Origin: Vibrio sp. SCSIO 43136
GTDB taxonomy: Bacteria > Pseudomonadota > Gammaproteobacteria > Enterobacterales > Vibrionaceae
Length of the DNA: 64,000 nt
Direction: 5' to 3'
NCBI RefSeq assembly: GCF_023716565.1
Contig: NZ_CP071848.1
Coordinates: forward strand, 2,480,001 to 2,544,000
The translations under genes were made by a program, and so were the position numbers. Below are positions 22,761-41,996 of this stretch, piece by piece; the first letter of the stretch is position 1; the number at the start of each line of letters is the position of its first letter. A model generated the notes under the pieces. It was not told the DNA's origin, searched no databases, and worked only from the letters and a program-made list of their open reading frames with translations.

Positions 22761-23030
22761 TTAGCGACGTAGGCCAAGACGTTTGATTAGGTCTTGGTAA
22801 CGCTCTAGGTTCTTACCTTTAAGGTAATCTAGAAGCTTACGACGACGAGAAACCATACGTAGAAGACCACGACGGCTGTGGTGATCGCCTTTGTGCGCTT
22901 TGAAGTGACCTTGTAGGTGGTTGATAGAAGCAGTTAGTAGTGCTACTTGTACTTCTGGTGAACCAGTGTCGCCTTCAGATTGTGCGTATTCTGCAACGAT
23001 TGCTGCTTTAGTTTCTGCATTCAGAGACAT
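22761..23030 (-). CDS. rpsO: 30S ribosomal protein uS15
   Basis: S15 binds the central domain of 16S rRNA early in 30S assembly. The 89-residue protein begins [20 protein letters not shown] and ends [12 protein letters not shown], full length and typical. GGAGAG precedes the ATG. It lies between truB and pnp as in E. coli and is separated from pnp by its own terminator. Confidence 0.98.
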
Positions 23031-23109
23031 AATTCTCTCCTAATAAGAGTTGGGTTTTAAAAGTGTGCCGCCAATCTCTGATTCAGCAGGCACGATGAGC
23101 GGGGGATTA

Positions 23110-29448: not shown

Positions 29449-29470
29449 CAAAAAAAGGGCTAATAGCCCT
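29449..29470 (-). terminator. Terminator between tRNA-fMet and rimP (proximal to rimP)
   Basis: The stem AGGGCT/AGCCCT with a 3-nt loop is followed on the minus strand by a run of seven T. It is the second of two tandem hairpins upstream of rimP. Confidence 0.8.
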
Positions 29471-29512
29471 ATCATAAAATCAGCATTATCTAAGTTTTCA
29501 AAACTCAGATAA

Positions 29513-29544
29513 CAAAAAACCCCGAATCTAGTCGGGGTTTTTTG
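29513..29544. terminator. Terminator between tRNA-fMet and rimP (distal to rimP)
   Basis: The stem AACCCCGA/TCGGGGTT with a 6-nt loop has T-runs on both strands. With the hairpin at 29449 it forms a double terminator, so nusA-operon mRNA must come from read-through or a promoter between 29398 and 29670. Confidence 0.88.
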
Positions 29545-29667
29545 TTGCTTGACCCTGATGATACTGATGTTGCCATCAGCCCGCAATCGCTTAACGCCTT
29601 AAAAAGCTGTCTAAGCCATTACGCAAACTTGCTAACCAACATTCTCATTCAAAACAATAAGAAAAGT

Positions 29668-39566: not shown

Positions 39567-40394
39567 TCAATTTAATCCCAAGAAATAGTTCACTACGTTG
39601 AAGTAGATCCAGATCCCTGAGATATCGACCACAGATGCCAGTACTGGGCTCACCAGTACGGCAGGGTCGAGCTTGCAAGCTCGTGCCAAAATCGGCAATA
39701 CACCACCTAAAGTGGTCGATAATGTCACCTGAATGAACAGTGCCACTGCGATAGCCAATGCTATGGTATTTAAGTCAAAGCCACCCGTTGAGCTGCTGCC
39801 ACTAAATAGCAACACTCGGCACAAAATAACCACGGCAATCACTGCAGCCAAACAGAGTGCAATTCGACTCTCTTTCCATATTACATCTAGCCACTGGCGC
39901 TTTTTGAGCTCACCTGTGGCGAGCGCCCTGATGACCAAGGTTGCCGCCTGTGAGCCCGTATTACCACCAGCGGCAGCAATGACCGGCATATAGACAGCAA
40001 GTAGCACCAGTTGGCTCAAAGTGTCTTCGTACTGAGCAATAATGAGTCCTGAAACGATGCCAAGCAAAGCCAAGGCCACAATCCAGCCAACACGCTGGCG
40101 GAAGTGAGCAATGACACTGGTGCTTAAATAATCTTTTGCCGTTTCGGCTTCAGAAAAGTTTAACCCCAATTGCATAGCATAGTGACGAGCTCGTTTATTC
40201 GAGCCTTGCGCCTCCAATTGGTCCAAAAACCAATGCACGTCAGAAACTTTACAGTTATGTAAGATCTCCACTGCTTCCTCTATAGGCATCACGCCTAATA
40301 AATGAAGCTGAGTCTCTTTGTCGTATTGCAAAAATGCGCTGTGAGCAGCGCCAATTTCATCGGCTGAAAATAGCGATGGTTGAATTACCGTCAT
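39567..40394 (-). CDS. MgtE-type divalent cation channel lacking CBS domains
   Basis: This is a 275-residue inner-membrane protein with an MgtE pore domain, likely moving Mg2+ (possibly Co2+ or others). The pore signature AAAGGNTGSQAATLVIRAL and about five hydrophobic segments are present. Only about 100 cytoplasmic residues precede them, resembling part of the MgtE N domain (LLGVMPIEEAVEILH), and the tandem CBS domains that sense Mg2+ in full-length MgtE (about 450 residues) are absent. The gene is preceded by a long structured leader with a leader peptide, so regulation may be at the RNA level. Confidence 0.85.
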   Translation of the reverse strand: MTVIQPSLFSADEIGAAHSAFLQYDKETQLHLLGVMPIEEAVEILHNCKVSDVHWFLDQLEAQGSNKRARHYAMQLGLNFSEAETAKDYLSTSVIAHFRQRVGWIVALALLGIVSGLIIAQYEDTLSQLVLLAVYMPVIAAAGGNTGSQAATLVIRALATGELKKRQWLDVIWKESRIALCLAAVIAVVILCRVLLFSGSSSTGGFDLNTIALAIAVALFIQVTLSTTLGGVLPILARACKLDPAVLVSPVLASVVDISGIWIYFNVVNYFLGLN

Positions 40395-40526
40395 GGCGAA
40401 TCTCCCGATTAGCGGTAACGACCATAAAACACGCCTACCCCTGCGTTTTATCGCATCAAAGGAAGTAAAATGTGCTCTATATACTGCTGATAAACCCTCA
40501 AAGGTTCATCGGCATGCCCAGGAAGC

Positions 40527-40560
40527 AGGAGAAAAATTGGGGGAAAAGTTGGGTGTTGAA
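40527..40560 (-). promoter_or_regulatory. Rut-like C-rich, G-free stretch in the MgtE-type leader
   Basis: In 34 consecutive nucleotides the minus-strand RNA has no G and 14 C, the composition of Rho utilization sites. It lies between the CCCTACC hairpin and the gene, where Rho-dependent termination could be switched by leader translation. Confidence 0.4.
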
Positions 40561-40622
40561 AAGAATTTTTTCGAAAGATTCCCTACCACTAAGGTAGGGC
40601 GGAGTCGCCAATACCGAAGCGG

Positions 40623-40667
40623 TTATTTTTCTCCCTGACTACTTGGGGGATGGTCGGTATTGTTCAT
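40623..40667 (-). CDS. Leader peptide MNNTDHPPSSQGEK upstream of the MgtE-type gene
   Basis: A 14-codon open frame (ATG at 40665-40667, TAA at 40623-40625) is preceded by CGGAG seven bases upstream. It contains Asp-His-Pro-Pro, and Pro- and acidic-rich leader peptides (MgtL, MgtP, CorL) set expression of Mg2+ transporters in Enterobacteria by ribosome stalling or destabilization. Its start region pairs with the sequence just past its stop. No homologue is known to me. Confidence 0.6.
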   Translation of the reverse strand: MNNTDHPPSSQGEK

Positions 40668-40760
40668 GTTTAACTCCGAAAGTGACTGCAAATCGCAGCG
40701 GAGCGAATTATAACACTGAGATCTAGCTCACGCTAGGTGGTAAAAGGTAAGTTTTAGGTA

Positions 40761-40793
40761 AAAAAATGGCTCCTTCATGAGGAGCCATTTTTA
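40761..40793 (-). terminator. tyrS terminator
   Basis: The stem ATGGCTCC/GGAGCCAT with A-run and T-run flanks lies 16 bp after the tyrS stop and can act on the minus strand (T6). Confidence 0.92.
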
Positions 40794-40808
40794 AATCAAA
40801 CCAATCAA

Positions 40809-41996
40809 TTACTTGATAGTAACACGAGCAAATTTACGTTTACCGACTTGATAAACCGCAGTGCCAGCTTCTGGTACCCATTTGGTATCTTCAATCTTAG
40901 CACCATCAAGTTTCGCTGCGCCTTGACGGATCATACGCATAGCGTCAGATGTAGAGTTTACAAGACCTGCCTCTTTGAGCAGGTTAGCAATTGCAATGCC
41001 TGCGTCAAACTCAAACTCTGGCATCTCTTCAGGCATCGCACCTTTTTGGAAACGGTTAATGAACTCTTGCTCAGCCGCATCTGCGTCCGCTTGAGAGTGG
41101 AAACGCTCGATGATTTCTTTCGCCAATAGGATCTTGATATCACGAGGATTCTTACCAGCTTCTACGTCAGCTTTAAACTGCGCGATTTCCGCTAGTGGGC
41201 GGAAAGATAGCAGCTCGTAGTAACTCCACATTAAGTCATCAGAGATGGACATGATCTTACCAAACATCTCGCTTGGTGCTTCGCTAATACCGATGTAGTT
41301 GTGCGCAGACTTCGACATCTTCTTCTCGCCATCTAAGCCAACGAGTAGAGGCATAGTAAGCACAACTTGAGGCTTCTGACCGTGCGCTTTTTGCAGTTCA
41401 CGCCCCATCAGTAGGTTGAACTTCTGGTCAGTACCACCAAGCTCAACGTCTGTTTCCATTGCTACTGAGTCATAACCTTGTAGGAGTGGATACATAAACT
41501 CATGGATAGCAATTGGCTGACCGCCTGTGTAACGCTTTTTAAAGTCATCACGTTCTAGCATACGTGCAACGGTCTGGTTCGCCGCAAGACGGATCATGCC
41601 TTCAGCGCCTAACTCAGATAACCACTCAGAGTTGAATGCAATCTTAGTCTTAGCTGGGTCTAGGATCTTGAACACCTGCTCTTTATACGTTTCTGCATTA
41701 CGCAGCACGTCTTCGCGAGTCAGTGGTGGGCGAGTGGTATTCTTGCCCGTCGGATCACCAACCATACCGGTAAAATCACCGATAAGGAAAGTCACATCGT
41801 GACCTAGCTCTTGGAACGCACGCAGTTTGTTCAGGATAACTGTGTGGCCTAGGTGGATATCAGGTGCAGTTGGATCGGCACCCAGTTTGATGCGAAGAGG
41901 GCGGCCCTCTTTCAATTTGGCAATCAGTTCTTCTTCTGGAATCAGTTCGTCAACACCGCGCTTGATCTCCGCTAGTGCCGTTTCCAAATTCGCCAT
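40809..41996 (-). CDS. tyrS: Tyrosyl-tRNA synthetase
   Basis: TyrS charges tRNA-Tyr. The 395-residue protein is of the shorter TyrRZ type, with HLGHTVI in place of HIGH, the KMSKS loop ([14 protein letters not shown]) and a C-terminal S4 RNA-binding domain ([12 protein letters not shown]). The start [14 protein letters not shown] is typical. It is divergent from the M23 peptidase gene. Confidence 0.96.

Follow-up and report, generated by a model that had tools for sequence, protein, structure and literature searches.

A conserved Pro-Pro leader peptide and structured leader RNA upstream of a CBS-less MgtE-type gene in the Vibrionaceae

Introduction

In the Enterobacteriaceae, the genes for the Mg2+ transporters MgtA and CorA carry a tiny frame in their 5′ leader (mgtL and corL, the former with acidic and proline codons), and alternative stems involving the frame are described for both leaders (PMC11552253; PMC11282234). 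As presented in these reports, the more the frame is translated, the less the gene is expressed. In the corA leader, the ON-state stems sequester a flanking pyrimidine-rich rut site, and corA expression stays high when the corL frame is unable to start (PMC11552253; PMC11282234). The mgtCBR leader of Salmonella is described as holding the short proline/acid frames mgtP and mgtQ, whose translation sets alternative stems for an Mg2+ transporter (PMC3641672; PMC8092293). RNA leaders of MgtE-type genes have also been reported. The M-box (ykoK) is an Mg2+-binding aptamer, and the M. tuberculosis M-box is described as controlling a small upstream frame and Rho-dependent termination (PMC12810186). 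The SRC-65-1 mgtE motif, a riboswitch candidate reported only in Thioalkalivibrio, is a structured RNA that places the Shine–Dalgarno sequence and AUG of the gene at the base of a stem (PMC11109978). Among the matches listed in a search of open-licence PubMed Central, none was an mgtE leader peptide or RNA element from Vibrio or the Vibrionaceae; the other mgtE RNA elements among them were the M-box and the Thioalkalivibrio-confined motif (PMC11109978).

The leader described here, from Vibrio sp. SCSIO 43136, shares with the mgtL and corL leaders a tiny frame and, putatively, alternative stems upstream of a probable Mg2+ transporter gene, yet it differs from them in several respects. The transporter belongs to a different family, MgtE, and the core of the peptide is D-x-P-P-S, with one Asp before Pro-Pro, whereas MgtL has EPDP. 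The end of the Vibrio frame pairs with a tract ~85 nt downstream, and a near-invariant strand by the gene start is complementary to the frame. The mgtCBR frames serve a gene family other than that of the Vibrio leader, and mgtQ has its effect where translation of mgtB begins, a comparison made by description (PMC8092293). The SRC-65-1 motif was likewise compared by description, and the M-box covariance model gave no match to the Vibrio leader. In Rfam 15, no family reached the gathering threshold or E 10 on the leader strand, and the one match was to a snoRNA on the opposite strand (E 4.6). Rfam presumably holds the enterobacterial Mg sensor and M-box families, and no homology in sequence or structure to the described Mg2+ leader RNA families appeared on the leader strand. 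The comparisons below indicate that the Vibrio leader is a real new leader-RNA family. By analogy it is best read as a leader that would work like mgtL or corL.

The locus and its gene

The window is the whole 64,000-nt stretch of DNA that was analysed, and all features below lie on its minus strand. The leader, ~300 nt long, is located between tyrS (40809-41996) and a gene for a 275-aa MgtE-type channel (39567-40394). A terminator-like hairpin with a T run at the end of tyrS (40759-40792) may separate tyrS from a promoter of the leader's own, for which the candidate is the extended −10 element TGTTATAAT (40707-40715, including TATAAT at 40707-40712). Of 65 non-redundant genus leaders, 58 have the pattern TGnTAnnnT at 28-70 nt before the leader begins, vs 2 of 65 in a control stretch, and a two-hexamer promoter scan of 40000-41500 found 0 sites with 2.0 expected. 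From 5′ to 3′ the leader then holds the hairpin P0, a ribosome-binding site, a 14-codon frame, the 3′ strand of helix P1, the hairpin P3, a G-free tract that ends in the 3′ strand of helix P2, the 3′ strand of helix P_long and P4, the start hairpin of mgtE. The segment 40380-40705 folds well below its shuffles (z −4.0). Elsewhere on the minus strand of the window, the known S15 and rimP leader RNAs (22974-23094 and 29450-29574) are ordinary. An earlier note on this DNA had read from the letters a TATAAT box, a 14-codon frame with a good ribosome-binding site, a 9-bp stem at the frame start, a perfect 7-bp hairpin and a final hairpin in the start region, and all of these are present; its G-free stretch is there too, at 45 nt and not the 34 nt given. 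P2 and P_long are absent from that note.

The gene behind the leader encodes an MgtE-type channel without recognisable CBS domains, as the earlier note had supposed. Its only family below E 0.04 is PF01769, the MgtE transmembrane domain (E 6e-33, residues 136-266), and neither MgtE_N nor CBS domains were found up to E 10 within HMMER's filters. TIGR00400 scored 150.1 bits, under its cut-off of 232.75, and aligned over profile positions 269-448 of 450 only. When solved structures were compared, the match was confined to the transmembrane part of full-length MgtE (2yvx, residues 298-469 of 473). Judging from the family, the ion carried is probably Mg2+. A link to salinity was considered and set aside: in a Photobacterium damselae RNA-seq study, an MgtE gene, which may or may not bear the leader, is reported 5.35-fold up in 1% vs 3% NaCl (PMC10308900), and the variable was NaCl.

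In 7 of 148 genus genomes the leader precedes a short form of 108-134 aa, which retains the N-terminal region of MgtE and no more than the first membrane helix and lacks the channel domain (L124, L125 and L157-L161). In another genus of the family (g107), four of five loci (L129, L130, L131 and L134) have a 127-128-aa short form, each with an intact leader frame, and the fifth (L128) is full length. Comparison of the short genes of L124 and L125 gave pS 0.78 and pN 0.22, and thus at least that short form is under purifying selection. The short forms of G099 and G142 have stops in the wider match and may be decaying.

Distribution across genomes

A protein search of the 148 genus genomes found a match in 147. 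A full-length CBS-less ortholog in one frame (at least 68% identity) was present in 95 of the 148, and in four the gene was split between frames; at the split loci L098, L100, L101 and L087 the leader frame is still kept. From 103 genus genomes 106 upstream regions were taken, and 102 of these contain the leader frame. No leader frame was found at three of the other four, the divergent paralogs L088-L090. The last, L099 in G016, is a divergent CBS-less mgtE (54% identity) with a diverged MQNVDFPPS frame that has no Shine–Dalgarno sequence upstream; this frame (MQNVDFPPSLNGIGNN, without a clear ribosome-binding site) is possibly a decayed or distant leader.

A covariance model built on 66 non-redundant leaders matched 106 of 148 genus genomes, at a single place each besides a weak antisense second match. 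Across the family, 220 of 329 genomes in 7 of 13 genera were matched, and across the order 17 of 295, 16 of them from the same genus. In another family, one genome of 11 (G194) carries the leader together with CBS-less mgtE (L126), a unit that was probably acquired by horizontal transfer. The model also matched 59 of 61 named loci chosen by protein alone, of which 35 hold a verbatim model row and are not independent of the model; of the 26 without such a row, 24 were matched. The two named loci without a model match are L216 (Photobacterium rosenbergii) and L222 (a V. ordalii fragment), and those with a match come from Vibrio species and Salinivibrio proteolyticus. Two further orthologs, outside the 106 upstream regions, are present in G005 and G139, with model matches just upstream of both. 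At all 30 outlier loci, mostly from other genera, the leader is followed by an MgtE-type gene or short form in the same orientation.

The earlier note had asked for frame and stem conservation in related vibrios, and the outcome is strongly favourable: frame, stems and Pro-Pro are kept in seven genera of the family.

The leader peptide frame

The leader frame, MNNTDHPPSSQGEK* (40623-40667), is preceded by a GGAG ribosome-binding site 6 nt before the ATG (40674-40677), and GGAG at this spacing occurs in 130 of 133 leaders. Asp5, Pro7 and Pro8 are invariant in all 133 collected frames, of which the 31 from outlier loci came from a pattern demanding Asp and Pro-Pro. Residue 6 is His in 127 frames, Asn in three, Gln in two and Tyr in one. 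Past residue 9 the tails vary freely (e.g., GEK, ENQTI, GSL and GGHF) with P2 pairing kept. In L020 and L087, loss of one base after Pro8 gives a shorter peptide, MNNTDHPPVAG, that retains the start, Asp5 and Pro-Pro.

Since the pattern used for L124-L155 demanded Pro-Pro and Asp, two other searches serve as checks. A model-free rule, which asked for a frame 8-30 aa long behind a Shine–Dalgarno sequence, with Pro-Pro within residues 5-11, and demanded neither a sequence nor Asp, found a frame at 58 of the 61 named loci vs 0 of 61 in antisense; the three loci without one are L214, L216 and L222. A pattern without the Pro requirement matched 92 of 106 loci, and all 92 proved to have Pro-Pro.

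The constraint on the frame differs between neighbouring codons. Counted over 97 frames, with redundant genus rows removed and with rows that are not independent events, codons 7-8 show 70 synonymous vs 0 non-synonymous row differences and codons 2-4 show two synonymous vs 56 non-synonymous. All four Pro codons are in use at position 8. Such a contrast would follow from selection on Pro-Pro as peptide and on codons 2-4, which lie in a strand of P1, as RNA. Thus, on the codon evidence, the leader frame and its Pro-Pro look selected as a peptide. Frame, Shine–Dalgarno sequence and codon-level selection point to a short frame with proline and acidic codons in the 5′ leader, as in mgtL. Breaks in the frame also occur. 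The frame of L125 is broken by a one-base deletion, and in L156 (G584) an intact mgtE (275 aa) stands behind a leader frame with no usable start and an early stop, which indicates that the leader is not strictly needed.

Helices of the leader RNA

P0 (40685-40699) is the hairpin with which the RNA presumably begins, with 94.1% of alignment cells paired and changes on both sides in four of six pairs. P1 joins CAATACCGA in codons 2-5 of the frame (40654-40662) to TCGGTATTG directly past the stop codon (40609-40617); 92.6% of cells are paired, and one of nine pairs has changed on both sides. P3, between P1 and the pyrimidine tract, is a perfect 7-bp hairpin (40581-40599; 40593-40599 with 40581-40587) in which 96.4% of cells are paired and six of seven pairs show changes on both sides. 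P2 links the end of the leader frame, GGAGAAAAAT (40625-40634), to ATTTTTCTCC in the pyrimidine tract (40528-40537), with 89.8% of cells paired and changes on both sides in four of 11 pairs. Jointly, P0-P3 have 92.7% of cells paired vs 42-52% when slid (alignment A1). Their 15 pairs with changes on both sides were reached in 0 of 500 shuffles, which ignore relatedness. In most genus leaders listed, a CTAGA-like box directly follows the P2 3′ strand (the place of 40500-40530); it is absent in the window.

Pairing in P2 and P1 was also assessed free of alignment. For 73 distinct P2 strands, own partners gave −15.27 vs −13.61 kcal/mol for mixed ones, and 0 of 5000 permutations did as well; for 20 distinct P1 strands the signal is weaker (−9.79 vs −8.58 kcal/mol; equalled or bettered in 15 of 5000 permutations). 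Because strands resemble one another among relatives, only six of the 73 P2 strands and two of the 20 P1 strands have their own 3′ strand as the single best partner. Outside the genus, P2 has been rebuilt from other sequence, as GGGAAGC/GCUUCCC in L140 and GGAAAGCCU/AGGUUUUCC in L154.

Two further helices involve the start of mgtE. P_long would pair CGACCAT inside the leader frame (40650-40656), overlapping P1, with ATGGTCG (40419-40425), which adjoins the mgtE start hairpin. In 94 rows 97.2% of its cells are paired, and it is almost invariant and thus without compensatory support. A possible compensation in L066, L143 and L144 (GACAAUC in the frame, GGUUGUU downstream) was seen by eye and not counted, since the search space is long and the seven pairs include wobbles. 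P4 joins GTTACC (40414-40419) to GGTAAT in mgtE codons 2-4 (40384-40389); in the same 94 rows 96.1% of cells are paired vs 21.1-33.5% for slides, and one pair has changed on both sides (to U-A, in four rows). Between them, pairing at 40396-40413 predicts a small hairpin whose loop would contain GGGAG (40402-40406), the mgtE ribosome-binding site; the sequence of this hairpin is nearly invariant within the genus. Inserts that look hairpin-like by eye lie between the P4 5′ strand and this ribosome-binding site in L061, L062, L067, L069, L132, L138 and L140, that is, inside the P4 loop and in several lineages. Pairing and compensatory changes thus back P0-P4 to differing degrees. P1 and P_long share nucleotides and compete for the frame start. 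P1 and P2 cross, and both have pairing support, P1 being weak in a pseudoknot-free folding model.

The tract that receives P2 is C/T-rich, 45 nt long with 15 C and no G (40527-40571), and is a candidate Rho-loading site. In the segment 45-90 nt past the stop codon, C exceeds G in 65 of 65 genus leaders and 29 of 29 outside it (94 of 94), as would be expected of a Rho site. By composition, the leader contains a pyrimidine-rich, G-poor segment that would suit Rho.

A proposed translation-coupled attenuator

The leader is proposed, with moderate confidence, to be a cis-acting, translation-coupled attenuator that resembles mgtL and corL in action and has no detected homology to them. A ribosome would be at work on the tiny frame as RNA polymerase moves along the leader. 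If it reaches the stop codon without hindrance, this ribosome would cover the end of the frame and block P2, the pyrimidine tract past P3 would be open, and Rho would be expected to terminate transcription before mgtE. Conversely, if the ribosome pauses or drops off at the Asp-x-Pro-Pro codons, as on mgtL in low Mg2+, P2 would form, the tract would be closed off and transcription would reach mgtE; P2 would form likewise if the frame were untranslated. Comparison of the leaders establishes the conserved frame, the selection on Pro-Pro, the P0-P4 pairing and the pyrimidine bias. Folding models predict that P2 survives a ribosome at Pro-Pro and that a ribosome at the stop covers the P2 strand. 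Rho as effector and cytoplasmic Mg2+ as signal are inferred.

In the leader of the window, the end of the P2 5′ strand is shared with the stop codon; elsewhere the stop codon is found at this place or a few codons further on. Folding was modelled with the ribosome footprint held unpaired in 92 leaders of the 97 rows, 64 from the genus and 28 from outside the genus core; L066, L067, L124, L143 and L144 were omitted where the start or anchor was not found, and the anchor of L045 was misplaced. In the 64 genus leaders the modelled probability of P2 is 0.80 in the free RNA, 0.84 with a ribosome at Pro-Pro and 0, by construction, with a ribosome at the stop, and predicted openness of the tract is 0.48, 0.475 and 0.63, respectively. 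For the 28 from outside the genus core, the corresponding values are 0.42, 0.46 and 0 for P2 and 0.47, 0.49 and 0.54 for the tract, and in the models these leaders are a weaker case for an attenuator. P1 is weak in the genus leaders (modelled at 0.14 free and 0.17 with a ribosome at the stop). P1 and P2 are mutually exclusive in these foldings because the model holds no pseudoknots, and their coexistence is possible. The mgtE start region has a modelled openness of 0.42-0.46 in all three ribosome states, and thus transcription termination is favoured over occlusion of the start. Intrinsic attenuation by P3 is not favoured: the T-rich stretch begins only after other bases, and a consensus scan of 40000-41500 found no terminator-like site at P3. 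Other observations do not sit easily with the attenuator: conservation of P_long and of the mgtE start exceeds what it requires, the peptide has a single Asp before Pro-Pro where MgtL has EPDP, and the intact mgtE behind a broken frame in L156 counts against it.

Alternative readings

In a first alternative, the output would be translation of mgtE and not termination. The near-invariant GAUGGUCG-UUACC could pair with the leader frame as P_long or help to close P4, and the leader ribosome would decide whether the mgtE start is free. The two helices are 97.2% and 96.1% paired in 94 leaders and directly adjoin one another; in genus leaders the modelled probability of P4 rises from 0.57 to 0.77 once a ribosome at Pro-Pro removes P_long, and mgtQ/mgtB is described as a precedent in which a translated small frame frees the ribosome-binding site of a transporter gene (PMC8092293). 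This reading is nonetheless doubtful, given that the modelled openness of the mgtE start is unchanged between ribosome states, that P_long has no compensatory change and that L026, L028, L033 and L133 have lost the UUACC strand of P4. Control of the mgtE start alone is kept only as a rival. A different proposal concerns the signal, which would be not Mg2+ but the translation of Pro-Pro, through EF-P activity, charged tRNA-Pro or overall ribosome speed. It agrees with Pro-Pro as the invariant core, with the reported response of the mgtP leader to proline limitation (PMC3641672) and with the described action of EF-P and EfpL on polyproline (PMC11611912). It appears unlikely, however, as Asp5 is also invariant in the 133 frames, although its RNA lies in P1 and P_long, and an MgtE-type gene or short form stands behind the leader at every locus examined, the 30 outlier loci included.

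A riboswitch, in which direct binding of a metal ion by the RNA would be the mechanism and the frame of lesser importance, would fit a highly conserved, structured leader before a metal channel gene, and the M-box, described as binding Mg2+ (PMC12810186), and the Thioalkalivibrio mgtE motif, described as a riboswitch candidate (PMC11109978), provide models for it. Much of the conserved sequence of the Vibrio leader lies in helices and the frame, its Pro codons vary synonymously only, and the leader strand matches no Rfam family, all of which makes direct metal binding improbable. Finally, close species with high DNA identity could retain an ordinary, unregulated 5′ leader through shared descent. 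This view is contradicted by the shuffles, slides, permutations and codon-level selection, and in other genera (L140 and L154) the P2 strands have been replaced by new complementary sequence; hardly any weight can be given to it.

The attenuator may be one part of a wider system, and we offer this only tentatively. The leader would be a Vibrionaceae-wide, independently evolved ribosome-based Mg2+ sensor in which the RNA coding for the D-x-P-P-S peptide pairs in turn with itself, with the Rho-loading tract and with the mgtE start, sets both transcription and translation, and replaces the lost CBS sensing; in two or more genera it would also control the short channel form, which has no more than one membrane helix.

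Implications for the Vibrionaceae

The earlier note had suggested an independent or distant Vibrio version of the enterobacterial leaders, which fits the lack of an Rfam family match on the leader strand, and had proposed that Mg2+ sensing shifted from protein to RNA. The latter can fairly be supposed, because there is one leader per genus genome, before a CBS-less gene or a short form. The comparisons suggest that a tiny conserved peptide leader probably uses the ribosome to sense conditions such as low magnesium. The leader RNA family, without a match in Rfam 15, is testable by simple reporters, and the 220 matched genomes of the family form a natural comparison set in which constraint on peptide and RNA can be separated codon by codon. 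If the proposal is true, Mg2+ sensing by the ribosome through acidic/Pro leader peptides would not be confined to enterobacterial mgtA, mgtCBR and corA, and a large marine family would have evolved it a second time, or kept it unnoticed, in front of the gene of another transporter family. The loss of regulatory CBS domains from an MgtE channel would also be easier to understand.
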